Shown: positions 1,254 to 42,135 of the stretch, one piece after another
How positions within the stretch are numbered: position 1 is the first letter of the stretch
How the letters are laid out: every line of letters begins with the position of its first letter
IMG/VR virus record: IMGVR_UViG_3300019888_000080
Coordinates: 1-42,200 of that record
Reading direction: 5' to 3' (one strand)
DNA from: a virus
DNA length: 42,200 bases
The notes under the pieces: generated by a model
What the model was told of the DNA's origin: nothing
The model's input: the letters and a program-made list of their open reading frames with translations, nothing else
The model's database searches: none
Translations under genes and position numbers: made by a program

Positions 1254-1754
1254 ATGGCAGCGAATACCGGCAACCTCCCTCACGCCGCGGCCAACCAGGC
1301 TAAGATCATTGGGCAGCAGGAACGCTGCTTTGACCTGCGCGAACAGGGCCACTCGATCCGCGAGATCGCGCGCCTGACTGAACTGTCCCGAGGCACGGTG
1401 CAGAACCGCCTCGACGACGAATGGATCAGGCGCATCGGTCCGCGCTCTGAACGACACCGGGAAACGCAGCTCGCGCAGATCGCTCAGGCCCAGGAACGGT
1501 TGATGGCCGAGAAGGACGCGATCGACATCGGTGAGAACGTGGACGCGATCGTGAAGCTGACCAACTCCCAGGCCAACCTTTGGGACAAGGAAGCGAAGCT
1601 GCTGGGTACTTACGCGCCCGAGAAGATGACCGTGTCCGGTTCCATGGCGGTGCGAATTCCCGAGCATCTAAGGGAAGCGGTCCTCGCGGCGGAGGAGAGG
1701 GCCCGTGCTGAAGCGGCTGTTCGGGAAGCCGCGGTCCGTGCCAGCGGCGGTTGA
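1254..1754 (+). CDS. Terminase small subunit-like HTH protein (left pair)
   Basis: 166 residues starting at ATG 1254 with CGGAGAG upstream. Residues about 25-55 form a helix-turn-helix (LREQGHSIREIARLTELSRG). A helical segment follows, ending in NLWDKEAKLLGTYAPEK. The LLG-x-APxK ending is common in small terminase subunits with an N-terminal HTH. The C-terminus is an Ala/Glu/Arg-rich helix. Small terminases recognise the packaging site and recruit the large subunit. The last 50 bases overlap the large terminase gene at 1705, which supports the pairing. It could instead be another HTH regulator, but length, tail motif and neighbour favour a terminase. Confidence 0.65.
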   Translation: MAANTGNLPHAAANQAKIIGQQERCFDLREQGHSIREIARLTELSRGTVQNRLDDEWIRRIGPRSERHRETQLAQIAQAQERLMAEKDAIDIGENVDAIVKLTNSQANLWDKEAKLLGTYAPEKMTVSGSMAVRIPEHLREAVLAAEERARAEAAVREAAVRASGG

Positions 1755-3264
1755 GTCCCCACCCGCGATCCGGTTCCCGCGCGGGTTCGACTCTGACTAT
1801 TACTTTGGCAAGCTGAACTCGGCCGCGCTCGAATACTCGGACGCCTACCGTCGTGATATTTGCCGCACTGACCCAATGATGTTTGGAATTTGTTATATGT
1901 CCCGGCACCTGATCTCCCCGGAGACCGGGCCGGATATCAACATCAGTCAGTTCCATCTCGACATAGCCGAGGCGGCGGTGCGCTGGATGCGTAATGACCT
2001 CGGACCCAGTGAGCTGCGGGAAGCCTGGATCGTTGCAAGAGGCGGGGCGAAGTCCACGTGGACTTTCACCATCCTGGCGTGCTGGGCCCTGGCGTTCGGG
2101 CACCGCCGGTTCATCGCCAGCTTCGGCGCGAACAACAACGCGGTGACCCGCCACTTCGCCACGCTGCGCGAAGAGTTCGCCACCAACGAGCTGCTGCGCG
2201 CCGACTTCCCCGATCTCTGCGAGCCGGCCAAGGTCGGCGGCAAGGCGCGCTCGGACAACGCCAATGCCTACATAGCCCGCTCCGGCGCGGTAATGATGGC
2301 GCACGGTATCGACTCGACCCAGCTCGGCGCGAAGGTCGGGAACATCCGGCCAGATTTGATCCTGTTCGACGACTGTGAATCTGACGAGGGCAACTACAGC
2401 CCGTATCAGAAGGACCGTCGGCTATCCACGATGACCAACGGCGTGCTAGCCATGAATCCCAACGCCGTGGTGCAACTGTGCGGGACGGTCACCATGTACG
2501 GCTCGATCACCCACGACCTGGTGCGCTGGGCGCTCAACGAACGCGACACCGCCAACCAGTGGGTCGGAGAACAGAACATCCGGCCGCGCTACTACGCGCC
2601 GATCGTGACCGACGACGCGGGCAACGAGTCTTCGTTCTGGGAGGCCCGATACTCGCTGGAGTACCTGCGATCGATACGGGGCACCACCTACTACGAGCTG
2701 AACTTCCTCAATCTGCCCCGCTCGACCAAGGACGGTCTGTGGCAGCCCTCCGACATCGTGGTGAACGAGCGGATGACGACTACCGACCGGGTCATGCGGA
2801 TCGACCCCAGCGTGTCCACCAAAGACACCAGCGACCAAACCGGCATCGGCGTGGCCGGTCTGGGGCCGATGGGCAACGTGCTGATCGAGTACGCGATCGG
2901 TGTTCGCCCGGAACCTGATGAGCTGCGCGACCTGGTCGGACGCATCACCTGGAACAACCGGAACATCCACGAGGTGCACCTAGAGACCAACCAGGGAGGC
3001 AACGTCATGGTAGCGACAATCCGGCCGGTACTGCCGCCCGGGGTGAAGCTGGTCGAGGTGTGGACGGGGGAGTCCAAGGACGCGCGGTTCTGGCGGTTCT
3101 TCGATTTTCACAAGCTCGGATGGGTCTACTACGCCGAGACATTCCCCGAGCTTCGCAAGCAGATGCTCGGCTATCCGAAGACGCGTCTCGATGACATCTT
3201 GGACGCGGTCTCTGGCGCGGCGGACCACTTCCTGAAGGGTCGGCCGCGGCCGATGATGCGTTGA
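1705..3264 (+). CDS. terL: Terminase large subunit (left copy, intact motifs)
   Basis: 519 residues, starting at GTG 1705 after a strong GGAGGAGAGG site (1691-1700). The large terminase is the ATP-driven motor that cuts the concatemer and packages DNA through the portal. The N-terminal ATPase has Walker A ARGGAKST (residues 111-118), Walker B LILFDDCE (218-225) and a coupling motif at LCGT (258-261). The C-terminal RNase H-like nuclease has Asp367 (RIDPS), Glu427 (HLETN) and an Asp pair at 496-497 (LDDILDA), the expected acidic triad. So both activities look intact. No portal or capsid gene is nearby on this strand; the structural genes lie far away beside a second, different large terminase (38696-40318). 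Confidence 0.88.
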   Translation: MLKRLFGKPRSVPAAVESPPAIRFPRGFDSDYYFGKLNSAALEYSDAYRRDICRTDPMMFGICYMSRHLISPETGPDINISQFHLDIAEAAVRWMRNDLGPSELREAWIVARGGAKSTWTFTILACWALAFGHRRFIASFGANNNAVTRHFATLREEFATNELLRADFPDLCEPAKVGGKARSDNANAYIARSGAVMMAHGIDSTQLGAKVGNIRPDLILFDDCESDEGNYSPYQKDRRLSTMTNGVLAMNPNAVVQLCGTVTMYGSITHDLVRWALNERDTANQWVGEQNIRPRYYAPIVTDDAGNESSFWEARYSLEYLRSIRGTTYYELNFLNLPRSTKDGLWQPSDIVVNERMTTTDRVMRIDPSVSTKDTSDQTGIGVAGLGPMGNVLIEYAIGVRPEPDELRDLVGRITWNNRNIHEVHLETNQGGNVMVATIRPVLPPGVKLVEVWTGESKDARFWRFFDFHKLGWVYYAETFPELRKQMLGYPKTRLDDILDAVSGAADHFLKGRPRPMMR

Positions 3265-3473
3265 TGCCCACCGCCGAACGAGATCAGCTCGCCGAGGAAC
3301 TGGCCCGCCTGGTCGGCCACCTGGCGCTGGCACGGGACCGGGGCCGGAAGGAAGGCAAGTCGTTGCTTGAGCAGAAGGCTTACCGGGAGGGGATCAGCAC
3401 GGCGATGCGGCTGATGGCCTCGAGCGCACTGCTCATGACGATCGGGCCGGAGTCCGCCAGCCTTATCGAGTAG
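3264..3473 (+). CDS. Small helical protein downstream of the left terminase
   Basis: A 69-residue protein starting at ATG 3264, which overlaps the terminase stop (TGATG). It is highly helical with a charged first half (ERDQLAEELARLVGHLALAR) and a Met/Ala-rich second half. No known domain was recognised. Coupling to the terminase stop suggests co-expression and perhaps a packaging-related role, but that is inference. It ends in the small inverted repeat at 3467-3489. Confidence 0.6.
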   Translation: MPTAERDQLAEELARLVGHLALARDRGRKEGKSLLEQKAYREGISTAMRLMASSALLMTIGPESASLIE

Positions 3474-3489
3474 CAACTAGGACTACTCG
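3467..3489. terminator. Short inverted repeat between convergent genes
   Basis: CGAGTAG (3467-3473) and CTACTCG (3483-3489) form a perfect 7-bp stem with a 9-nt loop. Each arm carries the TAG stop of one of the two converging genes. No U-tract follows on either side, so it is at best a weak two-way terminator. Confidence 0.3.
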
Positions 3490-3833
3490 CCCTTCTCTGA
3501 AACGAACTCTTCCCATGGCGTCATCCATGCCGTGCGTGTGGCGACTTTCCAGCCAGGGCGAACAGGATCGAACCGCTGCTCTGAAGCCAACGGCAGGGGA
3601 TTGTCCCAAGTTGCGCCGTCGGACTCGTCAGGGCTGACCAGGCCGTAGCTGATGTGGCCCTCGGAGGGTTCCAGTTCGCGGCGCAACGGCCAGTTGTACG
3701 CCACGATGAACGCGCGCTCACCGGGTAGCCGGAAAACTAGGGTGGAGTTGCCGTACTCGTCGCCACCGCGATAGACCAGAGGCCCCGACCAGGAACCCTT
3801 GCCGTACATCCAGAAGCGGCACGCTGACATCAC
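3483..3833 (-). CDS. Hypothetical protein, tryptophan-rich
   Basis: About 116 residues, starting at GTG 3833 or ATG 3830, just after the stop of the regulator at 3836. It is rich in aromatic residues and looks beta-stranded (SWSGPLVYRGG, FIVAYNWPL, ATRTAWMTPWEEF). No membrane segment or catalytic motif was recognised. It is the second gene of a two-gene minus-strand unit with the HTH protein, which may control its expression. Function unknown. Confidence 0.6.
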   Translation of the reverse strand: MMSACRFWMYGKGSWSGPLVYRGGDEYGNSTLVFRLPGERAFIVAYNWPLRRELEPSEGHISYGLVSPDESDGATWDNPLPLASEQRFDPVRPGWKVATRTAWMTPWEEFVSEKGE

Positions 3834-3835
3834 GA

Positions 3836-4051
3836 TCAGCTCACCGCCTTCTGCTCGAGAATCTGGGCGACGCGCTGGGGCGTGAGCCCGGCCAGGAGCG
3901 CGATCTCGCTGGGCTTGTGTGTCTCCCGGGCCGCGCGTATCAGCTCGCGCCGCTCGAGCGAGAGGTTAGCGATCTCCGTTGCGCACTGCTCCATTTTCGC
4001 CGTCAGCGCACGCACCCGGGCGGCCCACTGGGGCACCTGCAAGCTGTTCAT
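3836..4051 (-). CDS. Small helix-turn-helix regulator
   Basis: 71 residues from ATG 4051. Residues about 12-45 form a charged helix that could dimerise. Residues 45-68 contain a helix-turn-helix (PSEIALLAGLTPQRVAQIL). An upstream GTG at 4060 overlaps the -10 box and is less likely. The gene is divergent from 4164 and shares a 112-bp control region with it containing two GGGTTTAAAG copies, as expected for a self-controlling phage regulator. It could repress the plus-strand operon; that is inferred from layout only. Confidence 0.65.
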   Translation of the reverse strand: MNSLQVPQWAARVRALTAKMEQCATEIANLSLERRELIRAARETHKPSEIALLAGLTPQRVAQILEQKAVS

Positions 4052-4058
4052 GCTCAAC

Positions 4059-4064
4059 ACTCTA
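4059..4064 (-). promoter_or_regulatory. -10 box of a probable leaderless promoter
   Basis: TAGAGT on the minus strand (4064-4059) fits TANNNT and lies 7 nt before ATG 4051, the same spacing as at 283-288. This would give a transcript beginning at the start codon. No clear -35 box was found. Confidence 0.4.
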
Positions 4065-4065
4065 C

Positions 4066-4118
4066 GGGTTTAAAGGCCCCTTCACCAGCCTTGACGCGCG
4101 GACAAGGGGGGTTTAAAG
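4066..4118. promoter_or_regulatory. Two GGGTTTAAAG direct repeats in a divergent promoter region
   Basis: GGGTTTAAAG occurs at 4066-4075 and 4109-4118, 43 bp apart, each with a palindromic TTTAAA core. The first abuts the minus-strand -10 box. The second overlaps the plus-strand -10 box (4114-4119). A protein bound at both would cover both promoters, which suggests operators of the adjacent HTH regulator. Confidence 0.45.
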
Positions 4119-4119
4119 T
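4091..4119 (+). promoter_or_regulatory. Sigma70-type promoter for the gene at 4164
   Basis: TTGACG (4091-4096) and TAAAGT (4114-4119) are separated by exactly 17 nt, close to the sigma70/HrdB consensus. It is the clearest promoter seen in the window and would give a leader of about 38 nt. The -10 overlaps the second GGGTTTAAAG copy, so it is probably repressible. Confidence 0.65.
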
Positions 4120-4163
4120 AGAGCCTGCACCACTTGCAACTCCCCGACCAGGAAGACAGGCCA

Positions 4164-4457
4164 ATGACCGCCACAGTCACCGCCATCACCACATCCCTGC
4201 CCTGCGATAGCGACCCTGCAGCCTCCACGAGCCCCGGCTGGGGCCACGCCGTGATCGTCGGAGTGTTCGTGGACGACGCCACGCACATCGAGGTAGCGCG
4301 CCACGAGTCCGTGAGCGGCGTCCGCTACACCACCGTGGCGCTGCGCGCCCTCAACCACAACGGCGCCGACGTGGACCTGCGTATCGCCGACGGCCAGCTC
4401 AAAGAGCTGCTGCGCAAGCTCACGGCCGTGTTCGCGGCCGAGGCCAAGGGCGTTTGA
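4164..4457 (+). CDS. Small hypothetical protein under a strong promoter
   Basis: 97 residues from ATG 4164, with AGGAAG upstream. After a Thr/Ser/Pro-rich first 28 residues come several likely beta strands (HAVIVGVFVDD, YTTVALRALN, ADVDLRI), then a C-terminal amphipathic helix (QLKELLRKLTAVFAAEAKG). It is the first gene of a plus-strand operon running to 5031 or beyond, opposite a divergent HTH regulator. The overall plan resembles 402-659. Function unknown. Confidence 0.7.
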   Translation: MTATVTAITTSLPCDSDPAASTSPGWGHAVIVGVFVDDATHIEVARHESVSGVRYTTVALRALNHNGADVDLRIADGQLKELLRKLTAVFAAEAKGV

Positions 4458-4458
4458 C

Positions 4459-4638
4459 GTGAAGACCCCGATGGCAGCGAGCCCAGAACTGCAGCGGCTG
4501 TTGTGGTTCATGGTCGCTAGTGGGTGCGACGCTATAGAGATCGCCCGTGTAGCGGAGAAGCCGTGGTGCTACCCCGAGGAGTACGCCCTCGTCGTGATGG
4601 CCGATCGGGGCGGGCTCGTTGACGGCGACCTGACGTGA
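4459..4638 (+). CDS. Small hypothetical protein
   Basis: A 59-residue frame from GTG 4459, two bases after the previous stop. Its own stop (4636-4638) overlaps the GTG of the next gene as GTGA. Residues 10-33 (LQRLLWFMVASGCDAIEIAR) look helical, and the remainder is acidic with an aromatic patch (KPWCYPEEYALVVM). The gene fills the space between neighbours in the phase expected for this operon. Confidence 0.55.
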   Translation: MKTPMAASPELQRLLWFMVASGCDAIEIARVAEKPWCYPEEYALVVMADRGGLVDGDLT

Positions 4639-4835
4639 ACCGCCACCAGTGCGCCCATCACATCGTGTTCAGCGCCCTCACCCAAGCGCTCGCGCAGGCG
4701 TACCCGGACATCCCGGCGGCCGAGCGGCACCGGTTAGCCGAGCTGGTGTGCGTTGAGGCGGAGGTAGCGACCGCCGCCCGCCGGCCAGCACGGAACGCTG
4801 AGGCCATGCACGCCCAGAGGAGAGATTGTGCCTGA
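4635..4835 (+). CDS. Small hypothetical helical protein
   Basis: 66 residues from GTG 4635 (GTGA overlap). The sequence is helical and rich in Ala, His and Arg (HIVFSALTQALAQAYPDIP, then AAERHRLAELVCVEAEVATA). There are three cysteines but no CxxC pair. The 3' end overlaps the next gene by 8 bases. Function unknown; operon position is the main support. Confidence 0.55.
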   Translation: MNRHQCAHHIVFSALTQALAQAYPDIPAAERHRLAELVCVEAEVATAARRPARNAEAMHAQRRDCA

Positions 4836-5031
4836 ACCAACGCCCGAAGAGCTGGCCGAGATCGAGCATTACCGCCGGCTGTATGTCACTCCCAACATGC
4901 CCGCTGGGGAGTTCGCGGAACTGCTCCCGGAGCACCTTCGCCGCCCTTACTGGGCGTTGAAGCTCGACGAGATATTGGGCCCTCCAGACTCGCCCCGCTC
5001 CCATCGAGAGTCCAACAGTACCGACACCTGA
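4828..5031 (+). CDS. Small hypothetical acidic protein
   Basis: 67 residues from GTG 4828, with AGGAGAG a few bases upstream. Residues 1-50 contain PTPEELAEIEHYRRLYVTP and a second helix LLPEHLRRPYWALKLDEILG. The tail is polar. It resembles the small acidic helical proteins common in actinophage early operons, but no family could be named. Confidence 0.55.
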   Translation: MPEPTPEELAEIEHYRRLYVTPNMPAGEFAELLPEHLRRPYWALKLDEILGPPDSPRSHRESNSTDT

Positions 5032-5069
5032 CCCACTCCACACATCCCCCCTGAGAGAAGGCCACCGCG

Positions 5070-5780
5070 ATGCGCGGTAAGCACCACCTGCCCCGACGTC
5101 CGGGCTCGATCCAGCGCCTCTGGCTGCGCCGGCACTACCGGGCACGCGCGGTGCGTCAGCCCAAGCCGGCCAGGATAAAGCCCCGTGGGCGCGACGGGCT
5201 CGTCGTCAGCGGCGCCATGGCCGCCACGCTCACCGCCGTGGGAGTGGCCGCCGTGCTTACCCCCGGCGGCGCTCGCCTAGCCCCGATACTGGCCGAACCC
5301 GTTCCGCCCGCGATCGAGCCGGCCCCCGAAGCGGCGCCCTTAGTGTTCACCCCGCCAGCTGAGTATGAGTTCCCGATCGCGGTGGAGGAGACCCCGATCC
5401 CGACCCCAACGCCCACCGTGCGGTGGGTCGTCGAGAAGGAGGAGATGCACGTGCCACCCATCGAGGTAGTCGAACGCGAGCCCCGAGGCCGCCACTGGGC
5501 CCCGGACGTGGACCACTCCGATGACCGTCGCGACTCACGGCATGACGCGTGGCGCACGGACAGGCCGCGTCCTACCCCGTACCCCCGTGACCGTGACGAA
5601 CGGGACCACGGCGAGCGAGGGGGCCGGGAACGTAACGGCAGCGGCCACGACGGGCACGGGGGTCAGGGTGGCCATGACCGTGGCGAGCGCGGGGACAGTG
5701 GGGGACGCAAGGGTTCTGACGGCGGCAAGTCTCACGACCGTGGCGGCTCGGACCATGGCGGAAAGGGCAGGGGTCGGTGA
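5070..5780 (+). CDS. Single-pass membrane protein with a low-complexity charged tail
   Basis: 236 residues from ATG 5070, with a GAGAAGG site upstream. Residues 1-45 are strongly basic. Residues about 47-65 form one membrane helix (AMAATLTAVGVAAVLTP). Residues 70-135 are rich in Pro, Glu and Val and include PTPTPTV. The last 100 residues are almost entirely Asp, Arg, His, Gly and Lys in loose repeats (RDERDHGERGG, then HDRGERGDSGG and DHGGKGRGR). By the positive-inside rule the tail would be outside the cell. No catalytic motif is present. It could be an envelope-exposed polyampholyte; its function is unknown. Confidence 0.6.
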   Translation: MRGKHHLPRRPGSIQRLWLRRHYRARAVRQPKPARIKPRGRDGLVVSGAMAATLTAVGVAAVLTPGGARLAPILAEPVPPAIEPAPEAAPLVFTPPAEYEFPIAVEETPIPTPTPTVRWVVEKEEMHVPPIEVVEREPRGRHWAPDVDHSDDRRDSRHDAWRTDRPRPTPYPRDRDERDHGERGGRERNGSGHDGHGGQGGHDRGERGDSGGRKGSDGGKSHDRGGSDHGGKGRGR

Positions 5781-6154
5781 TGAGGAACGATCTCTATCAG
5801 GACGAAGTCTGGATCACCAAGGACGGGCACACGCTCCGATTGGTCGACATGACTCCGGAGCATCGACAGAACCTGCTGGCCTGGATACGGCGCAACTCTA
5901 TCCGACTAAAGCTCTCGGCCGAACTGTCGCTGTGCTACGGGCCGGAGCTGTCTGGGGACGCGGCGAACGACTGCTTTGACGCGATGTTTGACGAAGTGCT
6001 CCGGACCCCGGCGGCGCAGTGGATCGAAGAACAGCCTCTAGTCGTCCGGCTCCGCGAGCTTGTTGCGGCGGACGCACCATCTCGACGTCGCCGTGCCTTG
6101 GCCATGCCGGTCCCGGCGGGTGCGCTCGGCGACTCGGAGGGATGCGGCCGGTGA
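5780..6154 (+). CDS. Conserved-looking phage protein of unknown function
   Basis: 124 residues from ATG 5780, overlapping the previous stop (TGATG). The N-terminus DEVWITKDGHTLRLVDMT reads like a beta hairpin. A helical middle (HRQNLLAWIRRN) follows, then an acidic segment with one Cys (NDCFDAMFDEVL). The N-terminal pattern is of a kind often seen in small actinophage proteins near replication or packaging genes, but no function is established. The last 25 residues are basic and probably disordered. Confidence 0.6.
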   Translation: MRNDLYQDEVWITKDGHTLRLVDMTPEHRQNLLAWIRRNSIRLKLSAELSLCYGPELSGDAANDCFDAMFDEVLRTPAAQWIEEQPLVVRLRELVAADAPSRRRRALAMPVPAGALGDSEGCGR

Positions 6155-6187
6155 CGAACTGTCAGCCCGTGGTGAAAGGAGATGGTG

Positions 6188-6340
6188 ATGGATAACATGA
6201 CAGCCCTGCTGATCGTTACGGTGCTCTTCTCCATCACGGAGATGATCCAACTAAGGTGGCTAACGCTATTGAACCGAGAGGTTAAGGAATTGCACATACG
6301 GGTCAGGTCGACGTTGAACCTCAGCGAGGAGAAGCGATGA
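6188..6340 (+). CDS. Small single-pass membrane protein
   Basis: 50 residues from ATG 6188, with an AAAGGAG site 7-13 nt upstream, among the best in this block. Residues 4-22 (MTALLIVTVLFSITEMIQL) form one membrane helix. A charged, probably coiled segment (LNREVKELHIRVRSTLNLSEE) follows. Its stop overlaps the next ATG (ATGA). The helix plus coil plan resembles small phage membrane anchors; function unknown. Confidence 0.6.
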   Translation: MDNMTALLIVTVLFSITEMIQLRWLTLLNREVKELHIRVRSTLNLSEEKR

Positions 6341-6573
6341 TCGCCCCCGGCCACCGCTACCCGGACAAGTTACGTGGCCACCCGCTAGCCGACCACTGGC
6401 GTCCGGCGGAACCCGAGCCGACCGCCCCAGACCCCCTCCGCGCCGTCCTACGCAAGTGCATCGACGCCCTGCGCGCCGCCCAGCCGCTGCTGGCCCTGCC
6501 CCGAGACCGCGAGGTGCTCGAGGACGTGGCCCGGCGGGCGGAACAAGAGTTGAGGAAGGCCCGCGATGCTTGA
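6337..6573 (+). CDS. Small hypothetical protein
   Basis: 78 residues from ATG 6337 (ATGA overlap). The first 35 residues are Pro/His rich and probably extended. The rest is helical (RAVLRKCIDALRAAQPLLAL, then a Glu/Arg-rich helix). The 3' end overlaps the start of the next reading frame by 8 bases and carries that gene's GAGGAAGG ribosome site. Function unknown. Confidence 0.6.
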   Translation: MIAPGHRYPDKLRGHPLADHWRPAEPEPTAPDPLRAVLRKCIDALRAAQPLLALPRDREVLEDVARRAEQELRKARDA

Positions 6574-6825
6574 CCCCATGCCTGACGTACTGGCTAACCT
6601 GCGGCGAAGCTGGAGAAGGGGCGGCACCGCGAGGTCGGCGCGCTGCTGGACCTCCTAAACGAGGCCAACGCCGAAATTGCCCGTCTGTACCGGATCGAGG
6701 CCGCCGCGACCGCGCTGGTGGAGCACCGGCTCCACGGCGTCCACGACTACACCACGGGCGTGGACGAGGTAGAGGCGGACCTGTTCGACGCTCTGGCCGT
6801 CGAAGTGCGAGGTGAGCAGCGGTGA
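6566..6825 (+). pseudogene. Small helical gene interrupted by a frameshift
   Basis: ATG 6566 has a good GAGGAAGG site 7 nt upstream and reads MLDPMPDVLANL before this frame turns basic and stops at 6656-6658. From about 6598 the -1 frame reads AAKLEKGRHREVGALLDLL, stays open and ends at TGA 6823-6825, which overlaps the GTG of the next gene in the usual way. That second frame has no ATG or TTG, and only a late GTG at 6718. Joining the two near 6600 gives a plausible protein of about 87 residues. One lost G in CTG-CGG would explain it, either as a real mutation or as a sequencing error. No slippery heptamer is present. Confidence 0.55.
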
Positions 6826-7058
6826 AGACTGGCGCCGCGATACTGATCACCTTAGGCGTGTTGCTGCTCGGCGGGTCGGTCGTCGGCCTGGCCTACTCGG
6901 TCATCGGCCTCGTCACGCACAGCGGCGACTGGCGCATGACGTTGCTTAACTCCGCGATAGCCTTGGCCGCTGGCCTGTTCCTGTCTATGGGCTCGTCGAT
7001 GTTGGGTACCGCGTCCAGGGGGCGCCGCACATCGAAGCCTCGCCGCAGTGGGCGGTGA
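6822..7058 (+). CDS. Small two-helix membrane protein
   Basis: 78 residues from GTG 6822 (GTGA overlap). Residues 4-32 (ILITLGVLLLGGSVVGLAYS) and about 40-62 (LLNSAIALAAGLFLSMGSSM) are hydrophobic. The C-terminus is basic (RGRRTSKPRRSGR). Two helices, a short loop and a basic tail would suit a holin-like protein, but the gene is in the accessory block, away from the endolysin, so a lysis role is not claimed. Confidence 0.6.
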   Translation: MKTGAAILITLGVLLLGGSVVGLAYSVIGLVTHSGDWRMTLLNSAIALAAGLFLSMGSSMLGTASRGRRTSKPRRSGR

Positions 7059-7115
7059 GCAGCGATGACCACCGAACACGACCTGGGTGGCCGAACCCAC
7101 TGAGGAGGACCAGCC

Positions 7116-7409
7116 GTGAACATCCCCGACGAGGCGAACAAAGCGGCCTACGAACAGTTCGAGCTCGGCATGGCGGCATATGGGCCCCGCACGGCAGTAG
7201 GCATGGCGGTTAAAGCCGCTGCCCCGCATATCGACCGGGCCGCCCGCATCGACGAGCTCCTTGAGACCGCTGATCAAATCGCGGCGGGCAAGTTCCACTC
7301 GGCTGGCCCATCAGAGCATCTAGAGGTGGCGCAAGGAGTTGCACAGGTGATCGCGCAGCTCATGCGCTCGAAGGCAGCCCAACTTGAGTCCCTCCGTGAT
7401 GACCGTTGA
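7116..7409 (+). CDS. Small helical hypothetical protein
   Basis: 97 residues from GTG 7116, with a GAGGAGGA site upstream. It is almost wholly helical (EANKAAYEQFELGMAAYG, RIDELLETADQIAAGKF, VAQVIAQLMRSKAAQLE) and has no Cys, Trp or membrane segment. The 57 bases before it hold only a 12-codon frame (7065-7103). Function unknown. Confidence 0.6.
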   Translation: MNIPDEANKAAYEQFELGMAAYGPRTAVGMAVKAAAPHIDRAARIDELLETADQIAAGKFHSAGPSEHLEVAQGVAQVIAQLMRSKAAQLESLRDDR

Positions 7410-7417
7410 GGCGAGCG

Positions 7418-8053
7418 ATGACTGAGCAAATGCCTCCGCCGGTAGAAGACCGCTACCGGTACTGGTCCGAGCCGCCGCCCGCCCTCTCTCCCCGCTGCCT
7501 GTGGTGGCTGGGCCAGCTGAACGATAGACGGTGGACCGTCGCGGAACTGAACGCTGAGCTACCCGAAACGATCCATGGCTACGACACCACCGCCGAGCTG
7601 TACGGCGTGTACATCTGGGAGTGGTGCAACATCCTGTGGCACGTCGTGGCCCACACGCGGTACTGGACGTGGCGCAATGTGGGGAGCCCGCCACTGGACG
7701 ACTTGGTAGGCAAGTTGCCGGAGGACGCCGGCAGTAGCGGGTTCAGCGATCCGCTGAACTTGCCCGGCATCAAGCGGGGCACGATCACGATCAAGGGCCG
7801 GGCCCCAGAGGCCCGAGACGACCTGACGGACAAACTCCGACGTGAAGGCGAAGATCAGGCTGCCTTCTACGCATTCATGGGTGCTCCACCAGAGCCAGGA
7901 CAGTGCGGCGCTGGAATGTGGGACATGTACTCCGGCGCCGACCTTGTCTGTGTTGAACCCGCCGGGCATGAAGACGACCACGCCAGCCGAATCACCCCCA
8001 CCATGGGGAACAGTCCGATTACGTGGCCGCGCGGGAAACACGATGACGACTGA
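7418..8053 (+). CDS. Hypothetical protein with a C-terminal Cys/His motif
   Basis: 211 residues from ATG 7418 with GAGG 6 nt upstream. The N-terminal half is Trp-rich (residues 13-90, including RCLWWLGQLNDRRW and YIWEWCNILWHVVAH), suggesting a compact helical fold. The C-terminal segment has Cys...Cys...HEDDH (QCGAGMWDMYS, then CVEPAGHEDDHAS), a spacing seen in small zinc-binding proteins. The 3' end overlaps the next gene by 11 bases. No enzyme family recognised. Confidence 0.6.
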   Translation: MTEQMPPPVEDRYRYWSEPPPALSPRCLWWLGQLNDRRWTVAELNAELPETIHGYDTTAELYGVYIWEWCNILWHVVAHTRYWTWRNVGSPPLDDLVGKLPEDAGSSGFSDPLNLPGIKRGTITIKGRAPEARDDLTDKLRREGEDQAAFYAFMGAPPEPGQCGAGMWDMYSGADLVCVEPAGHEDDHASRITPTMGNSPITWPRGKHDDD

Positions 8054-8426
8054 CCCGGTGGAGTTCTTGCGCCGAACGTTGGCCGAGGTCAAGGCCCGCG
8101 CGGAAGCGGCCGCGAAGTACCCCGGTCGTCGGTGGATAGCCGCGAATGGGACCGTGTTCGATGACGACGGCGCTGAGCCGTTGATGTCGTTCTACAACGA
8201 GGCCAGCGAAGCTGCATTAGCCGAGCATGTGCAGTTCTGGGACCCGGCCGCCGCTCTGCGGATGGTTGCCGGGGCGGAGAAGCTGCTGAAGCTGCACTCC
8301 GAGAGACACGAGTGTGCGTTCCAATGGCCAGATGGAACCGTTGACAGCGGCTACTACGGTGGAGAATGGAAGCCCTGCCCGACGCTGGAGATCGAGGCCG
8401 AACGGTGGGGCTGGACCGATGAGTGA
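8043..8426 (+). CDS. DUF6221-like protein
   Basis: 127 residues from ATG 8043. The start DPVEFLRRTLAEVKARAEAA, the middle HVQFWDPAAALRMVAGAEKLL and the late PCPTLEIEA match, from memory, the DUF6221 family, common in actinobacteria and their phages and of unknown function. The protein ends in ERWGWTDE. The next gene ends in the almost identical ERWGWSGE, so the two may share a C-terminal binding element. It overlaps the next gene by 8 bases. Confidence 0.7.
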   Translation: MTTDPVEFLRRTLAEVKARAEAAAKYPGRRWIAANGTVFDDDGAEPLMSFYNEASEAALAEHVQFWDPAAALRMVAGAEKLLKLHSERHECAFQWPDGTVDSGYYGGEWKPCPTLEIEAERWGWTDE

Positions 8427-8697
8427 TGACCACGTTGTGTACGCGCATCACACCTTCGTTCGGCGTATCGAGCAGATCGCCGGCATAGAGATCGACCCAC
8501 CGCATTGGGAAGCATGCTGCGTCGCCTGCGGCCACGTCTACGTCACAGGTAGCAGCGAGGAAGACGCCAACCGGTGGGCCGCCGAGCACGACGCTGGGGC
8601 GCCGAGAAATGAACTGTTCGCCGGGCTTAAGCCCGGACAGACGCGGCATTTCGTTGTGGACGATGAGACCGAGAGATGGGGATGGTCCGGTGAGTGA
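8419..8697 (+). CDS. Small protein with a cysteine cluster
   Basis: 92 residues from ATG 8419. Residues 28-45 (PPHWEACCVACGHVYVTG) contain CCxxC, which could bind metal with nearby histidines. The C-terminus ETERWGWSGE repeats the ending of the DUF6221-like neighbour. The middle GLKPGQTRHFVVDDE is probably beta. It sits in a chain of overlapping genes (8 bases with each neighbour). Function unknown. Confidence 0.6.
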   Translation: MSDDHVVYAHHTFVRRIEQIAGIEIDPPHWEACCVACGHVYVTGSSEEDANRWAAEHDAGAPRNELFAGLKPGQTRHFVVDDETERWGWSGE

Positions 8698-9004
8698 GAC
8701 CACCTGTGCCCGTTGCGGTCATCAATCCGGCGGCTGCCCGAAATGTGGCCGCAACGATGAATGCATCGGATATGAAGTTGAGGGCAGGATGTACTGCAAT
8801 CTGCTAGTCAAAGGAGATCGGCGGTACCAAAAACCGACCTGCGAAGCGTGGCCGATGTGTTACTGGGCCAGGCTGAAGGACACCTCCGGCGGGCTGGGAT
8901 CGATCATCGCCAACGACAACTTCAAGGGTCCCACCACCCTGTCGATCAAGCCCGGAGACAAGGCCGTGCAGTTCTCCAACGGCTGCACCTGGACGCGGAA
9001 GTAG
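8690..9004 (+). CDS. Zinc-ribbon protein, last gene of the left block
   Basis: 104 residues from GTG 8690. The N-terminus has two CxxC knuckles in CARCG and CPKCG (residues 6-20), a clear zinc-ribbon pattern, followed by another three cysteines before residue 65. The C-terminal half is basic and beta-like (GPTTLSIKPGDKAVQFSNG). It is directly followed by the large two-way terminator at 9017-9077. A nucleic-acid or protein binding role is possible but not shown. Confidence 0.6.
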   Translation: MSETTCARCGHQSGGCPKCGRNDECIGYEVEGRMYCNLLVKGDRRYQKPTCEAWPMCYWARLKDTSGGLGSIIANDNFKGPTTLSIKPGDKAVQFSNGCTWTRK

Positions 9005-9415: not shown

Positions 9416-9600
9416 CGGGCGACCTCCCTGATCGTCCGCCACCGCTGCAACGCGTCCGCTTCAGCCACCCGCCACTGCCGCAGCCGCTCGGCGCAGACGG
9501 CCATGTGGGTCTCCCGGGCGGCCTCGCAGGCGCGCTCGTCGGACCCGCACGTCCGCCACCCGCACGGGGCGTACGGGCAGCAGCGGTGGGAGCCCCTCAC
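9412..9600 (-). CDS. Small cysteine-rich protein
   Basis: 62 residues from GTG 9600 (GTGA overlap with the fibre gene stop). The first half has five cysteines (RCCPYAPCGWRTCGSDERAC). The second half is an amphipathic helix with Trp and Arg (RLRQWRVAEADALQRWRTI). It may bind a metal ion. Both ends overlap neighbours by 4 bases, which supports it as a real gene. Confidence 0.5.
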   Translation of the reverse strand: MRGSHRCCPYAPCGWRTCGSDERACEAARETHMAVCAERLRQWRVAEADALQRWRTIREVAR

Positions 9601-10367: not shown

Positions 10368-10370
10368 CGG

Positions 10371-31419: not shown

Positions 31420-31452
31420 GTATTTCCTCCTGTAACCAGGCCGAACTGACGC

Positions 31453-31887: not shown

Positions 31888-31902
31888 AGGGCCCGCCCCA
31901 GA

Positions 31903-32667: not shown

Positions 32668-32669
32668 GC

Positions 32670-32867: not shown

Positions 32868-32894
32868 AAGGAGTTCTCCCTGGGGGAAGGGGAT

Positions 32895-34722: not shown

Positions 34723-35997
34723 TCAGGTGGCGAGGACGAGGGCCTTGACAGCGTTGGCGTCATCCGGAACCGCGTCCAGCCGCATGAAGCCGAAGAACCC
34801 GACCTGCAGCATTTCGGCGTACCGCTCCGCGAGCCGCACCATCTGCACATCCAGCACCTGGCGCACGATGTACCCGGCGTTGAAGTCGCCGAACAGCAGA
34901 GGCTTGGCACCCGTGACCAGCGTCCCGGAAGGCATTGCCTGGTCAATCGAATACGGCTGGCCGTTGATGGTGGAAGGCTGACCAGGGACCGGAACCGGAA
35001 GCCACAGGGGACGGTTCTGGGAGTCCTTCACCTTCCGCAGGCGGGACAGCGCGTTGTCGCTGAGCAGGAAGCGACAGTTGCCCATCTGCCGATAGGCCGG
35101 GTCAATCGAGTGCTCCAGGTCGATGATGTAGTTGTACAGCGCCGCGTCCGCGGCGGTACCCGGCGTGTTCCAGTTTGCGAGCGACCCAGTCCCCGGAGCA
35201 GAACCGGACACAGCGGTCGGCAGGATGCCAAACGGCATCGTGGTGCCGGTGCCGTTGACCAGGTGGTCCGCCACGGCTCGGCCGATGCGTTCACCGAGCT
35301 TGCGCGGCAGCCAGGAGTCCAGGTTGAACGCGGAGTCCTGCAGCAGCTGCAGCGAGACCCGCACCAACTTACTGGTGTAGGTGAACGCGCCGATGGACTT
35401 GGTCCCGATCGTCACACCCAGCTCGCCGATCGCGGTGTTCTCCGCCAGGATCGCGCCGACGTTGCCGGTGTCGTCGTTGGACGGCCACTGCAGGTTGTTA
35501 CCCGTACTGGTGGAGATGACGTTGGCGTAGCTGATCAGGCCGCCGTAGGCCTTCAGCGCCTCGGTCATCACCGCGCGGTAGCCCGGAGGGACGAGGAAGC
35601 CACCGTCGGCCGGCACACCGACACCCTGGGGCGAGGCGCGGTTCTCCAGCATCAGGCCGCGCTGCTCGTCGGTCAGGGCCCGCATGCCACCCCGCAAGAA
35701 ACCGCCGAAGGCGGCCTCGTGCGCCGCGGCGCGCTGCTCGGCGGGCTGCTCCGGGGTTTCCCCCGACTCACCGGTCTGGATGACCTGCCGGTAGTCGACC
35801 GAATCCAGCCTCGCCGAACGCTCCAGGCGCTCGATGTCGGCCGAGACCTCGTTGATGCGCGTTTCGGCGGAGTCCCAGTTGGTCCGCTCCTCGGCGGTCC
35901 AGTCCCGGTCCTCCTCCTCGGCGACGCGCTGAATCTCCTGCATGCGGTTGAAGAGCTTGTTCTGCTCCTCCACCAGCCGCTTGAGGTGATCACTCAT
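34723..35997 (-). CDS. Major capsid protein (HK97 fold)
   Basis: 424 residues from ATG 35997. Residues 1-70 are a charged coiled-coil delta domain (RLVEEQNKLFNRMQEIQRVA, WTAEERTNWDSAETRINEVS). Residues from about 130 match the HK97 capsid core: ADGGFLVPPGYRAVMTEALK, a P-domain helix (YTSKLVRVSLQLLQDSAFNL), and the late FGDFNAGYIVRQVLDVQMVR. The protease gene is just upstream. It forms the icosahedral shell; the delta domain is probably removed by the protease. Confidence 0.93.
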   Translation of the reverse strand: MSDHLKRLVEEQNKLFNRMQEIQRVAEEEDRDWTAEERTNWDSAETRINEVSADIERLERSARLDSVDYRQVIQTGESGETPEQPAEQRAAAHEAAFGGFLRGGMRALTDEQRGLMLENRASPQGVGVPADGGFLVPPGYRAVMTEALKAYGGLISYANVISTSTGNNLQWPSNDDTGNVGAILAENTAIGELGVTIGTKSIGAFTYTSKLVRVSLQLLQDSAFNLDSWLPRKLGERIGRAVADHLVNGTGTTMPFGILPTAVSGSAPGTGSLANWNTPGTAADAALYNYIIDLEHSIDPAYRQMGNCRFLLSDNALSRLRKVKDSQNRPLWLPVPVPGQPSTINGQPYSIDQAMPSGTLVTGAKPLLFGDFNAGYIVRQVLDVQMVRLAERYAEMLQVGFFGFMRLDAVPDDANAVKALVLAT

Positions 35998-36075: not shown

Positions 36076-37257
36076 TTAGGCGGCCGCGCGGAGCAGCGCG
36101 CGAAGGCGCTTCAGCTCTGCCTTGGCCAATTCGTGGCGCGACGGGGCATTCCGAGTGGACGCGGCCGGCTCGGGGGTCTCGTCTTCAACACGCGCTTGCT
36201 GCTGAGTGGTCTCGGCCGGCTCATCAGCTGACTTGCTTTCATCGGAAATCTCGATGCCGAACTTCTTGCAGGCGGCTTTGATCCGCCCCTTGATCGCCTT
36301 GAGCTGCTCAGCGCTGTAGCCGCTGGCATTCCCAGCCTGATTTATGTAGCTCCAAGCCGCCTTGGCGTGTTCCTTCGTGTTGATCGGATACCGCTTCTTC
36401 CCGTCCGACTTATAGCCGGGATCAGCGTAGGAAACATCCCCGTACGGCTTCTTGGGGTCGCGCTCCTCGAACGGCTCCATAGCGCTGCCCTCGGCGGTGA
36501 TCGGGGTGTCGTGACCGAGCACTTCGCCCGGCAGGCCCTCGATCTCGTGCTTGATCCGCTCCAGCGACTCCTTGAGCGCAAGGTCGATGTGCACGGGCCG
36601 CCGCTGCGGGTCGTAGTCCAGCAACGGCGCGAGCTCCGGGCGGAACGAGCACGCGCGCGCGATCGCATCCGGGTCACCCCGGTGCCGCAGCGCCGGCACC
36701 AGCGAGTACCGCAGCCCGGCGTCGGTCTCCTCGTAGGCGGGGAAGGTGACCGCCGAGACCTCGATCAGCTTGACCTCGCGGATGGTGCGCAGCTCCACCT
36801 CGGCGGGCTGCCCGTCCGCGCCGCGGCCCTCCTCCGAGGTCCAGTCGTCCTTGACCACCTGGAAGCCGAACGACATCCCTCGGATGTTGCCGTTGTCCAG
36901 GTTCGCGATCAGGTCGTTGACGTAGGACAGGCGGGTGTCGAGCGTGGAGTTCGTGAGCAGCCCGAGCCCGTCCTGGGACAGGTTCAGCGTGCCCGCCGAG
37001 GCGCGGGACACCACGTGGTAGGAGGAGTGGTCGATCAGGAACCGGGCGTCGGCCTCGTCGATCGTCTTGGTGAAAGCCCCCGGCGCGACCTGCTCATAGA
37101 AGCCGCCCTTGAGCGGGTTCCCGATCGTGGTGCGCCGGTCGAACATCGCCGCGTGACCGATGAACCGCTGCGCACCGGTGTCGGCCTTGACATTGACGCC
37201 GGCATCCACCAGGGACAGATCGCGGCGCTCTTCACCAGTCGGCAGACTACGAAGCAT
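36076..37257 (-). CDS. Prohead protease fused to a DUF6582-like domain
   Basis: 393 residues from ATG 37257, chosen because GAGAGGAT lies just upstream; GTG 37275 is in frame. The first 190 residues are an HK97-type (S78) prohead protease: RFIGHAAMFDRRT, His77 (LIDHSS), Ser129 (GMSFGF) and Glu167 (IEVSAVTFPAY). Residues about 260-335 (KKPYGDVSYADPGYK, YPINTKEHAKAAWSYINQ, IKGRIKAACKKFG) fit a DUF6582-like segment. A disordered tail rich in Glu/Pro follows. The protease matures the capsid; the extra domain may bind or guide it during head assembly. Confidence 0.9.
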   Translation of the reverse strand: MLRSLPTGEERRDLSLVDAGVNVKADTGAQRFIGHAAMFDRRTTIGNPLKGGFYEQVAPGAFTKTIDEADARFLIDHSSYHVVSRASAGTLNLSQDGLGLLTNSTLDTRLSYVNDLIANLDNGNIRGMSFGFQVVKDDWTSEEGRGADGQPAEVELRTIREVKLIEVSAVTFPAYEETDAGLRYSLVPALRHRGDPDAIARACSFRPELAPLLDYDPQRRPVHIDLALKESLERIKHEIEGLPGEVLGHDTPITAEGSAMEPFEERDPKKPYGDVSYADPGYKSDGKKRYPINTKEHAKAAWSYINQAGNASGYSAEQLKAIKGRIKAACKKFGIEISDESKSADEPAETTQQQARVEDETPEPAASTRNAPSRHELAKAELKRLRALLRAAA

Positions 37258-37275
37258 CGCCGATCCTCTCTTCAC

Positions 37276-38523
37276 TTAGTTGCCCGCGTCCGACGGACCG
37301 AGCGACGAACCGCCGAGGACCTTGTCGGTGCCCAGTGGCGAGTCCACCGCCCCGCCCGGGAGCGGTTCCATGTAGTCGTCGCCACCCTCGCGCGGCGGCA
37401 GGTCTTCGCGCTCCCGAATCTCGTTCGCGCTGAAGGCGCCCATCTCGTACATGACCCGGTAGTACTCGGCGCGGGCGATCGAGTCGCCGCGCATCAGGTC
37501 ATCGACGCTGTAGCGGGCCTCGAGGGTCACCGGCAGCAGCTCCTTGGTGATCCGCTGCTCGGTCGGCGCCAGCCAACGCGGGTGCAGGTCGAACTTCACG
37601 AACCCGGTGCTCTGCTGCTCCAGGCCCGTGCCCCAGGATGTGGTCTTTTCGGTCTGCATCATCAGATACGGCGGGATTCCGAGGAACCTGGCCAACTCCG
37701 TGATCTGAAAGTCGCGGCTTTCCAGCAGTTGAGCATCGTCGTTGGGCATGGTGAGCGACTGAAATTTCGCCCCGGCGTCGATGATCGCCACCTTGTGGGC
37801 GTTGTCGATACCGCCGATCTTCTCCTGCCAGCGCCGCTGCAGCGACTCGGCCTGCGGCTGGGTCAGCTTCTGCTCGGTCTGCAAGATGCCCGACTGCAGG
37901 TTCCCCGACCCGAACAGCTTCGCCCCGTACTTCTCCGCCGCGATCGACAGACCCACCGCCTGCGCGGCGGCGCGGACCGGGGAGATACCGCACAACCCAT
38001 CCATCGACAGGAACGGCACATGGAAGACCTCGTTCGAGGTCAGCGCGTGGGTTTTGCCGTCACGATCGGTGACCTGAAAGACCTTCCCCGACGGGTTGGC
38101 CTCGGTGGACTTGGCCCGACCGACCGCGACCCCGGCGGGGTCGAACGGCATCAGCGACTTGATCCGCCCCGGCCGGCTGTAGACCTTCTGGGCGTAGAAG
38201 TTGCCCCACAGCGCCCGGTGCACGGCCGAAAGGCCCCAGAACTCCACCGGGGTCATCTCCGGGTGTGGATCGTCGATCAGCGGGTGCGAGGACTCTTCCT
38301 TGGTCCCCTTGACCACCACGTCGATCGGCAGCGCCCCGCACATGGCCGAGATCAGCGAGACACCCCGGAAGACCGCGGACATCCGCATCGAGGTCTGCTC
38401 GTTGACCGGGACACCCGAATCGGTGGGCAGCCCCCCGAGCACGCCGAGCAGGGACAGATCAGTCAGCGGGATCGCCGGGTTCTCCAGGCTGGCACGGCGA
38501 TCGAACAGACCGAACAGACTCAC
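37276..38523 (-). CDS. Portal protein (HK97 type)
   Basis: 415 residues from GTG 38523 (GTGA overlap). Typical signals: SMRMSAVFRGVSLISAMCGA, HPLIDDPHPEMTPVEFWGLS, WGNFYAQKVYS, the EVFHVPFLSMDGLCGISPVR stretch, a middle AIIDAGAKFQSLTMPNDDAQ, then LARFLGIPPYLM. It builds the 12-mer ring through which DNA enters and leaves. It is downstream of the large terminase at 38696 with one small membrane gene between them. Confidence 0.93.
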   Translation of the reverse strand: MSLFGLFDRRASLENPAIPLTDLSLLGVLGGLPTDSGVPVNEQTSMRMSAVFRGVSLISAMCGALPIDVVVKGTKEESSHPLIDDPHPEMTPVEFWGLSAVHRALWGNFYAQKVYSRPGRIKSLMPFDPAGVAVGRAKSTEANPSGKVFQVTDRDGKTHALTSNEVFHVPFLSMDGLCGISPVRAAAQAVGLSIAAEKYGAKLFGSGNLQSGILQTEQKLTQPQAESLQRRWQEKIGGIDNAHKVAIIDAGAKFQSLTMPNDDAQLLESRDFQITELARFLGIPPYLMMQTEKTTSWGTGLEQQSTGFVKFDLHPRWLAPTEQRITKELLPVTLEARYSVDDLMRGDSIARAEYYRVMYEMGAFSANEIREREDLPPREGGDDYMEPLPGGAVDSPLGTDKVLGGSSLGPSDAGN

Positions 38524-38684
38524 TGGGCCGCCTTCTCGCGCCACATGGCCGCGTCCGCCTTCTCACAGGCCCAGATACCGCAGGCACCGGCCACGATCAG
38601 CGCGGCCGGCACGTAGACCAGGGCGACGCCGGCTACCAGCAGGCCGAGGCACACCAGCTCGAGGATGACAAGGAGCCGCGGCAT
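38520..38684 (-). CDS. Small two-helix membrane protein between terminase and portal
   Basis: 54 residues from ATG 38684 with GAGAGGAG upstream. Two hydrophobic stretches (LLVILELVCLGLLVAGVALV and YVPAALIVAGACGIWACEKA) then a charged end MWREKAAQ. A membrane protein at this site is uncommon and its purpose is unknown. It overlaps the portal start (GTGA). Confidence 0.6.
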   Translation of the reverse strand: MPRLLVILELVCLGLLVAGVALVYVPAALIVAGACGIWACEKADAAMWREKAAQ

Positions 38685-38695: not shown

Positions 38696-40318
38696 TCACC
38701 AGATGCTGGGGATCAGCTCTTCGGCCATGGCCCCGTGCTCCAGGGCCCATCCGCGGGCCTCGTAGGCCAGCAGGGCGGCGACGAACGCGCTGATCGACTG
38801 GGCGTGGCTCTTGCGGACCACACGCTGGTAGTGCTCGGGGGTGCCGGGGTCGCGTTCCTCGGCGGCGGGACGTTTCTTGCCGGGAGCCAGCGCGGCGGCC
38901 GAGGCGTGCAGGGTCAAGATTTCCGACCCGTCGTGCGTGATCTCGTTGCCCCGGTGCGCGGTGACGAACCGCTCGACGAGCTGATCCATCCGCATCTCGG
39001 AGTTGAGCCAGATTTCCAGGACCTTCGAGGTTTCCTCGTAGCGGTCCCCGTGGTTCTGATACATCCCGGCCCAGGTGTTGACCTCGTCCTGCCAGCCGTG
39101 CGGGCTGCACATCATGGCCACCACGTCATAGGCCACGTGCGCGTGCTCCACGGCCTCGTGGACCTCGCGGCGGGGGGTCGCCCAGTCGTCCTCGTCGAGG
39201 GGTCGTTCCCAGGTCCGCAGGTGGAACAGGCGACCATCGGACAGGCGCGAGGCGCACAGGCTGGTGGCATCCCGGGTCAACGCGCCGTGGAAGCCGAGGG
39301 TGATCCGGTCACCGGGCTCCAACCGATCGCCGGGGACCGCTTGCGCGTCCCAGGCCAGCATGTTGACCGCGTCCTTGGAGCCGACCGTCACGGTGTTGAG
39401 GTAGTAGCGGCGGACTTCGCCCTCAGAATGCGCCGGGTTCTGACACTCGCGCGCGATCCGGGTGAGCCGCACCCAACCGCCGCGCTCGGTCGAGCTGTCC
39501 CCGTAGGCGTGCCGCAGTTCCTTCAGGAGCGCGTCATCGTTGTGCAGGTCGACACGCTCGTCACGGGGCTTGCGGTAGTCGAGGTAGACGTGCGGGTCCT
39601 TGGCCTCGAACGTCCGCTGCGCCACCGACGCCTCGGCCGGGTCCCAGGCGTTGCTGATCTCGATCCAGCGGCCATCCATGCCGCCCAGGTTCCGCTTGAG
39701 CGTGCGGGCGAGCTTCAGGCCACCGGAAGTCTCAACCATCAGTTGAGACTCGGTCATCGAGACGTAGGTCACCCGCGCGCCCTGTCGAGCCCTACTTGAG
39801 GACGTCACCGGCTCGATCCGGCCACCGCTCGGCAAGTTGACGCGGGTCTCCCCGACGTCCAGCCCCGGGGTGCGCGCCAGCGGCCCTTCGCGCAGCATCG
39901 TGACCAGCGGGCGGAAAGTGTTCGCCGTCTGCTCCTCGGCGTTGCCGGCGCACTGGATGTGCGGAGTCGGCCACGGCTGGCCCACCGGCTCACCCCGGGC
40001 GTCCCAACCAGCGAACCGGACGGGGCCCATGGCCTCGGCGCAGATGATCGAAGCGGCGAATGGGTCCTTGCCCCATTTCTGGGGCCGCACCAACAGCGCG
40101 CCGCTGTACTCGAACGCGTCCGAGCCCTCCCCGTCACGAGCGTTCGGCACCAGCCGATAGGCGTGCAGCAGGTGCCGGTACTGCTCGTCGGTCAAAATGT
40201 AGGGCGCGCCCATCCGTTCCCCGTCGGGGATGATGACGTTCGCCTCGATCCACGCGGCGACCTCGTGCCCAAGGGTGGGCCACTGGTCACCAGCAGGGTC
40301 AGGACCACGCCAGGGCAT
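38696..40318 (-). CDS. terL: Terminase large subunit (right copy, atypical active sites)
   Basis: 540 residues from ATG 40318. It matches the actinophage large terminase family in overall order: Walker A region VRPQKWGKDP (78-86), ATPase core to about 240, nuclease after about 330. Substitutions are seen where the family has acidic residues: YVSMTES at 185-191 where Walker B Asp-Glu is expected, GFHG at 342-345 where GFDG is usual, and CSPHGW at 404-409 where a DP-type motif is usual. HDG at 462-464 is kept. It sits before the portal, the normal terminase site, with TerS at 41683. It may be an altered motor; the left copy at 1705 keeps its acidic residues. Confidence 0.88.
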   Translation of the reverse strand: MPWRGPDPAGDQWPTLGHEVAAWIEANVIIPDGERMGAPYILTDEQYRHLLHAYRLVPNARDGEGSDAFEYSGALLVRPQKWGKDPFAASIICAEAMGPVRFAGWDARGEPVGQPWPTPHIQCAGNAEEQTANTFRPLVTMLREGPLARTPGLDVGETRVNLPSGGRIEPVTSSSRARQGARVTYVSMTESQLMVETSGGLKLARTLKRNLGGMDGRWIEISNAWDPAEASVAQRTFEAKDPHVYLDYRKPRDERVDLHNDDALLKELRHAYGDSSTERGGWVRLTRIARECQNPAHSEGEVRRYYLNTVTVGSKDAVNMLAWDAQAVPGDRLEPGDRITLGFHGALTRDATSLCASRLSDGRLFHLRTWERPLDEDDWATPRREVHEAVEHAHVAYDVVAMMCSPHGWQDEVNTWAGMYQNHGDRYEETSKVLEIWLNSEMRMDQLVERFVTAHRGNEITHDGSEILTLHASAAALAPGKKRPAAEERDPGTPEHYQRVVRKSHAQSISAFVAALLAYEARGWALEHGAMAEELIPSIW

Positions 40319-41409: not shown

Positions 41410-41422
41410 GGGGAGGTCTCTC

Positions 41423-41683
41423 CTACGGGACGGGGAACGGGGCCGGCGGGTTCGGCAAGGTCACTTCGCGGTGCACGGTGATCGGCTCGCCGCCGCGCTC
41501 GCCGTCCTCCAGCCACACGATCTTGAAATCTCCCGGCGCGTCACGGCGCTCCACCCAGTGGGTGAGCAGCACCTCGGACGGGTCGATGCCATGCTGGGAG
41601 AACCAGTCCTGCCACAACGTCACGTGCGCGGGGCTATCGTGCTGGATGTCCTCGCGGAAGTAGTCGCGGACGTTGTAGGCCAT
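41423..41683 (-). CDS. Small hypothetical protein next to TerS
   Basis: 86 residues from ATG 41683 (ATGA overlap with TerS). AYNVRDYFREDIQHDSPAHV, then TLWQDWFSQHGIDPSEVLLT and IVWLEDGERGGEPITVHREV, ending in a Pro-rich tail. It has the compact alpha-beta look of small conserved phage proteins with unknown function. Confidence 0.6.
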   Translation of the reverse strand: MAYNVRDYFREDIQHDSPAHVTLWQDWFSQHGIDPSEVLLTHWVERRDAPGDFKIVWLEDGERGGEPITVHREVTLPNPPAPFPVP

Positions 41684-42135
41684 CAGGCCGATTCCTCGGT
41701 GTCCACGGCCTTGAGCCGGCGCCGCTGGGGCTTCTCGGGCTCGCGGCGGTCCTCGAGCTCGTCAGCCACGACTTCCCATTCCAAGCGCTTGAGCGCCTGC
41801 GGGTTCAGTCCGAGACGGTCCTCGAGCTGGCGGGCCTCGCCGTGCACGTTGGACAGGGCCACGGACATCTTGGACTCGAGCTGCTCGGCCAGCAAAGCGG
41901 TCCGGATGTACCGCGCGATCATAAAATCAATATGCATCCGGACCCACTGAGCGGCCTGCGGCGTACGCCAAAGCCGTTCCCAGCGGTACAGCTCCATCTC
42001 CGACGCCTCATCGAGGGGCCAGTCAGGGAATGGGCCGTCATAGCCGTCAATGGGCAACAGGACCTTTGCATTGGTCGGGTTCTGTCGCCGACGGGCGGAT
42101 GGGTCCTTTGAAAGGGGACCTCGACTTCCACTCAC
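41683..42135 (-). CDS. Terminase small subunit (right pair)
   Basis: 150 residues from GTG 42135, chosen because CGGAGG (42147-42142) sits 6 nt upstream. The N-terminus GSRGPLSKDPSARRRQNPTN, a middle PDWPLDEASEMELYRWERLW, TPQAAQWVRMHIDFMIARYI and helical C-terminus correspond to small terminase subunits next to actinophage large terminases. It starts the late operon and is followed by the repeat protein and the large terminase. Distinct in sequence from the left small subunit at 1254. Confidence 0.75.
   Translation of the reverse strand: MSGSRGPLSKDPSARRRQNPTNAKVLLPIDGYDGPFPDWPLDEASEMELYRWERLWRTPQAAQWVRMHIDFMIARYIRTALLAEQLESKMSVALSNVHGEARQLEDRLGLNPQALKRLEWEVVADELEDRREPEKPQRRRLKAVDTEESA

Follow-up and report, generated by a model that had tools for sequence, protein, structure and literature searches.

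The large terminase subunit (TerL), close to universal in tailed phages, is thought to need both an ATPase and a nuclease, and the field has yet to explain how a single TerL switches from cutting to pumping and back. In HK97 TerL the nuclease residues are D302, D388 and D471 (PMC9410871), and the C-terminal region of TerL has been implicated in portal docking in other phages (PMC5727402). Phage phi29 packages unit-length, protein-capped genomes without a small subunit (TerS), using a gp16-type ATPase with a vestigial nuclease whose fold is kept but inactive (PMC9410871, PMC7672431). Our study infers a similar state for one of two TerLs in a family of soil actinobacteria phages; unlike in phi29, the motor here is a TerL of HK97 type that has a TerS, and a second terminase accompanies it. 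The window analysed, an IMG/VR virus record of 42,200 bases that is linear and incomplete, is one member of this family, which carries two complete DNA-packaging terminases. Since relatives with both terminases span 62-71 kb, the window is without its early/replication arm. An initial annotation had proposed two terminase pairs; both are real, the large subunits being confirmed by profile, model and fold search. The features are listed below, the left pair being called solo and the right pair canonical.

972..1226, plus strand: small membrane protein, 5' of the solo TerS; weak matches among W_4, G4_92, G45r_11 and C94_44
1254..1754, plus strand: solo (left) TerS, HTH; HTH/sigma70_r4-like domain and homology to HTH genes 5' of TerL
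1705..3264, plus strand: solo (left) TerL, 519 aa; phrog_38 match, 9.5e-47, with model, fold search and motifs
3264..9004, plus strand: mostly small rightward genes, forming an accessory block that separates the solo TerL from the converging late operon; gene calls
9597..33320, minus strand: 3' part of the late operon (tail and other virion genes); synteny with G003, G004, G045 and G082
34723..35997, minus strand: major capsid protein; PF05065, 6.7e-59
36076..37275, minus strand: prohead protease; PF04586, 1.1e-35
37276..38544, minus strand: portal protein; PF04860, 7.6e-78
38696..40318, minus strand: canonical (right) TerL, HK97-type; phrog_19179/phrog_9, fold search match to 6z6d at 6e-20, residues H344, S405 and S510
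41683..42183, minus strand: canonical (right) TerS, start uncertain; tblastn to annotated TerS, Terminase_7 at 0.001, below the cut-off

The canonical TerL (38696-40318, minus strand) was correctly placed before the portal in the initial annotation; protease and capsid genes follow the portal. Its TerS is placed here at 41683-42183, with an uncertain start (41683-42135 in the initial annotation). Homologues of this TerS are annotated as terminase small subunit in Arthrobacter and Gordonia phages (tblastn). The TerL matched phrog_19179/phrog_9, and its closest solved structure in the fold search was HK97 TerL (6z6d, 6e-20). By profile, model and fold search it is an intact two-domain TerL with the HK97-type fold and ATPase motifs like those of its relatives. 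What the initial annotation missed, and what changes the likely meaning of the second pair, is that this protein is without the nuclease residues. H344, S405 and S510 stand in place of HK97 D302, D388 and D471. The pairing of S405 with D388 comes from a profile alignment, and that of H344 and S510 rests on order, conservation and position in the model, where H344 lies at the end of beta1, S405 at the end of beta4 and S510 at the start of the last helix. All three RNase H-type aspartates are missing, with varied replacements, from 22/22 right TerLs of the clade (the sequences at ≥60% identity), and D-D-D is kept in all 88 right-TerL relatives outside it. The Walker motifs are alike in the two groups. 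The canonical TerL thus does not have the three catalytic aspartates of a nuclease-competent HK97-type TerL and is predicted to be nuclease-dead with its ATPase motifs kept. The ratio of nuclease-domain to ATPase divergence was 1.14 in nuclease-dead and 1.09 in intact relatives; the domain is therefore about as conserved as in intact relatives, which suggests that its fold is still needed, as in phi29.

The solo open reading frames exist where they were first reported (1254-1754 and 1705-3264, plus strand) and encode an HTH TerS and a TerL. The TerL starts with GTG, 3' of a GGAGGAGAGG ribosome site, and matched the phrog_38 terminase large subunit in a PHROG search (9.5e-47); a Pfam search matched no family. 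Structure prediction had been suggested as a check on this protein, and the AlphaFold model (pLDDT 89.4, pTM 0.86) matched the solved TerLs 8dgc, D6E, T4 gp17 and Sf6 in a fold search. Profile, model and fold search show an intact two-domain TerL, with an ASCE ATPase bearing Walker A and B motifs and an RNase H-like nuclease. The quoted Walker A motifs, ARGGAKST on the left and RPQKWGKD on the right, are correct, and the two large subunits are indeed unrelated, the left belonging to the phrog_38 lineage and the right being HK97-type. The left HTH frame is 60% identical to the C94 TerS and 65% to that of G080, and no match to it was found among isolate phages. Its profile matches the HTH gene 5' of TerL in many portal-linked relatives, and by this homology it is identified as a TerS. 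As the initial annotation had observed, the adjacent portal and capsid cassette is absent; no portal was found near the solo pair in G045, C94, G080, G082, G083 or the left arm of the window.

The nuclease residues of the solo TerL are conserved in 7/7 sequences and the ATPase residues are also kept. Its dN/dS of ~0.12 (G004/G045) and ~0.25 (C94/G080) is similar to that of the portal, capsid and right TerL, and the solo TerL is under purifying selection. Portal-linked TerLs have at least 28 residues past the last nuclease motif and usually end near a Tyr, whereas the solo tails are 22-26 residues long in six of seven cases and none has the Tyr; the exception in length, G083, has 33 residues. 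The terminal Tyr is also absent from 27/107 linked TerLs. A Gly-to-Ala change in Walker A fitted four sequences as a solo-TerL signature and was dropped, as G082 and G083 have Gly.

The initial annotation had proposed looking for the two-pair layout in related phages, and it was found in four other, separately assembled phages of 62-71 kb (G004, G045, G082 and G083). The second TerS-TerL is encoded on the other strand from the canonical TerL, at a distance of ~32-40 kb, with early/integrase genes on one side and the converging late operon on the other. G045 (68.7 kb) matches the window in order and strands with no permutation, its left TerL lying at 6.8-8.3 kb and its right TerL at 44.6-46.2 kb, and G004 (62 kb), with both TerLs, shows synteny with the window when the map is taken as circular. 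The layout recurs in G082 and G083, although much of the G083 tail module differs. Two fragments, G080 and C94, the latter a contig of a Streptosporangiaceae MAG, carry the solo pair together with early and integrase genes that adjoin it. The product of 972..1226 is weakly similar to neighbour genes in G004, G045 and C94, and W_11 and W_17 of the 3264..9004 block match C94 and G080 genes in the same block. Across the locus, early genes run leftward and a divergent block runs rightward, converging with the late operon at the latter's 3' end; in G004 and C94 this block comprises a repressor-like HTH gene, a tyrosine integrase, an excisionase-like HTH gene, small genes, TerS and TerL. In G045 and G080 the tyrosine integrase is replaced by serine recombinases, and a tie to a single integrase type was dropped for this reason.

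G003, which is without the solo pair, has SpdB-like and FtsK-like genes in that region. SpdB-like and FtsK/SpoIIIE-like genes, which are typical of actinobacterial conjugative elements, are found in G003 (L087:5181-8082) and G080 (reverse strand, 18746-20182), in the block on the integrase side. FtsK was considered as an alternative occupant of the locus, but an FtsK-like frame and a solo TerL occur together in G080 and are both missing from G081, and the idea was dropped. In G081 the region holds a match to the PHROG 850 'RNA-binding protein' (L320:13416-15002, minus strand, 1.9e-52), presumably a Ro/TROVE-like protein, in the accessory region where others have the solo terminase. Between the canonical TerL and TerS the window encodes a Thr/Ala/Ser-rich protein of 242 aa with two internal repeats (40681-41409, minus strand), without a match in the family search; in G004 the corresponding interval holds a SASA-esterase/arabinofuranosidase-like virion protein (L084:13118-15049, minus strand) that is absent from the window. 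Adjoining the late operon of G045 is a gene for a Ku-like DNA-end-binding protein (L263:16285-17067, minus strand), beside a RuvB-like ATPase, with Ku-like homologues in G004 (39845-40636) and G003 (51760-52554). These two proteins may represent unusual DNA-end handling with a bearing on packaging ends. One sample yielded both IMGVR_UViG_3300044691_000392 (G080), with the solo pair, and 3300044691_000021 (L290), with a nuclease-dead canonical TerL, and the two contigs may be halves of one phage.

The nearest named relatives of the solo TerL are in Microbacterium and Streptomyces phages and the Streptomyces satellites MiniFlayer and Mulchroom, and sequence comparison places it in the siphophage/satellite lineage of Isperia, PHTowN and MiniFlayer. 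Used as the sole query, the window's left TerL gave no match in viral contigs; its relatives came from alignment- and relative-based scans, and an integrase-based scan found nothing. All but two of 101 scanned loci with a related TerL have a matching portal gene, nearly always just downstream, and both exceptions belong to the window's clade; in this family TerL and portal usually travel together. Separate trees of the large subunits, also suggested at the outset, placed the seven portal-less TerLs in one clade (support 99/92), which points to an old monophyletic group rather than a recent accident. An integrated capsid-forming satellite was ruled out, there being no portal or capsid gene near the solo pair. 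Of the satellite or past-recombination origin proposed in the initial annotation, the derivation from another phage or satellite lineage stands, with MiniFlayer and Mulchroom near, but the age of the clade and purifying selection argue against a recent event.

Among records >40 kb, 5 of the 7 nuclease-dead phages carried the solo TerL and none of the 23 nuclease-intact ones did (Fisher 1.5e-4, a value that overstates the association, as phylogeny makes it close to one event). The solo terminase was thus restricted to nuclease-dead phages, but a nuclease-dead motor is not always accompanied by it: in G003 and G081 the TerL is nuclease-dead and the late genes are intact, but the solo TerL is absent, and no substitute nuclease common to the two was found. 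In the right-TerL tree G082, a carrier, branches first and the two non-carriers sit inside the clade, so the simplest history would be presence of the solo pair in the clade's ancestor and two losses. The solo TerLs of G004 and G045 are 91% identical though their right TerLs are not sisters; the solo and right TerL trees are not congruent, and the cassette has also been exchanged between phages.

The best explanation we can offer, a tentative one, is that two terminases divide the labour of packaging in a clade of temperate actinobacteriophages. On the right the motor is kept and the nuclease lost, and on the solo side the nuclease is kept and the portal-linked tail lost; the functions are complementary, so that each terminase would do what the other no longer can. 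In its specific form, which is possible but more doubtful, this would be a natural two-part terminase, with a portal-docked, nuclease-dead HK97-type translocase and a portal-free TerS-TerL that cuts in trans. The canonical TerL would dock on the portal and pump DNA, like the phi29 ATPase with its vestigial nuclease. The solo TerS, an HTH protein, would recognise the packaging site and recruit the solo TerL, which would cut the concatemer in trans for the canonical motor and perhaps also end packaging. The solo pair was probably in the clade's ancestor around the time of the canonical nuclease loss. The strongest objection is that G003 and G081 do without the solo pair, and a search for a substitute nuclease in them found none. 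Also counting against it are the position of the solo genes in the integrase-side block, outside the late operon, the incongruent TerL trees, the 33-residue tail of G083 and the 27/107 linked TerLs without a terminal Tyr.

In the main rival the solo pair is an anti-competitor accessory made by the prophage from its lysogeny region: TerS would recognise competitors' packaging sites and TerL would cut or tie up their DNA, the targets being other phages or satellites of the solo TerL family, and the canonical nuclease loss would be unrelated. The pair adjoins repressor-like and integrase genes, a usual place for prophage exclusion genes; it is without a portal and a portal-linked tail; and, as accessory genes do, it is missing from some members and has moved between phages. 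Satellites with this TerL family exist (PMC10690885). However, this reading leaves unexplained why the pair is confined to the nuclease-dead clade and traces to its ancestor, and no known exclusion system of such a kind was found in the literature searched; we regard it as somewhat unlikely. Another conserved role for a solo motor in the temperate cycle, such as concatemer resolution or moving phage DNA in the lysogen, seems unlikely. The FtsK/SpdB-like genes of G003 and the FtsK-like frame of G080 put translocases in the same block, and Ku, RuvB-like and Prim-Pol genes hint at unusual DNA handling, but the presence of both solo TerL and FtsK-like frame in G080 and of neither in G081 shows that they are not simple alternatives. 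A complete solo TerS-TerL with ATPase and nuclease motifs could also dock on the phage's own portal and package other DNA or generate other ends; this we consider quite improbable, given that the pair is without a cognate portal, in a family where TerL and portal usually travel together, and without the C-terminal peptide of portal-linked relatives. An assembly chimera, raised in the initial annotation, or a dead relic is very unlikely indeed even for a linear, incomplete record, as order and strands are repeated in four contigs of other IMG/VR records (G004, G045, G082 and G083), left-arm genes are matched in C94 and G080, and the conserved motifs and purifying selection in pairs of relatives rule out a relic.

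If the division of labour is true, evolution has here pulled apart packaging and cleavage, which one protein normally combines, and the clade would allow the two activities, seemingly housed in two unrelated terminases, to be studied separately in nature. The clade also shows how a phage can take over a terminase from another phage or satellite lineage. Even if the trans-cutting model is wrong, a dead-nuclease HK97-type TerS/TerL and a conserved portal-less terminase need explaining, and classification based on TerL may meet two conflicting markers in one genome.

Compared with known systems, the right pair resembles HK97-type TerS/TerL in fold, in ATPase motifs and in its gene order relative to portal, protease and capsid, but differs by the loss of the three nuclease aspartates. 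MiniFlayer, Mulchroom (PMC10690885), Isperia, PHTowN and Zuko have a TerL of the left pair's family, preceded by an HTH TerS; in them TerL is followed by portal and capsid, whereas the solo pair has neither these nor the C-terminal peptide. Capsid-forming PICIs, like the solo pair, have their own TerS and TerL (PMC10690885), but also encode portal and capsid, and the solo locus encodes neither. Two TerL annotations per genome occur, as here, in phiPDS1 (PMC10773633) and in XaC1 and XbC2 (PMC11273794). However, phiPDS1 has a single TerL split into two domains and XaC1/XbC2 have tandem TerL homologues without TerS, so in neither case is there a second TerS-TerL pair from another lineage. The open-access literature searched yielded no report of a second pair of this kind, and as far as that literature shows, the arrangement is new while all of its parts belong to known protein families.
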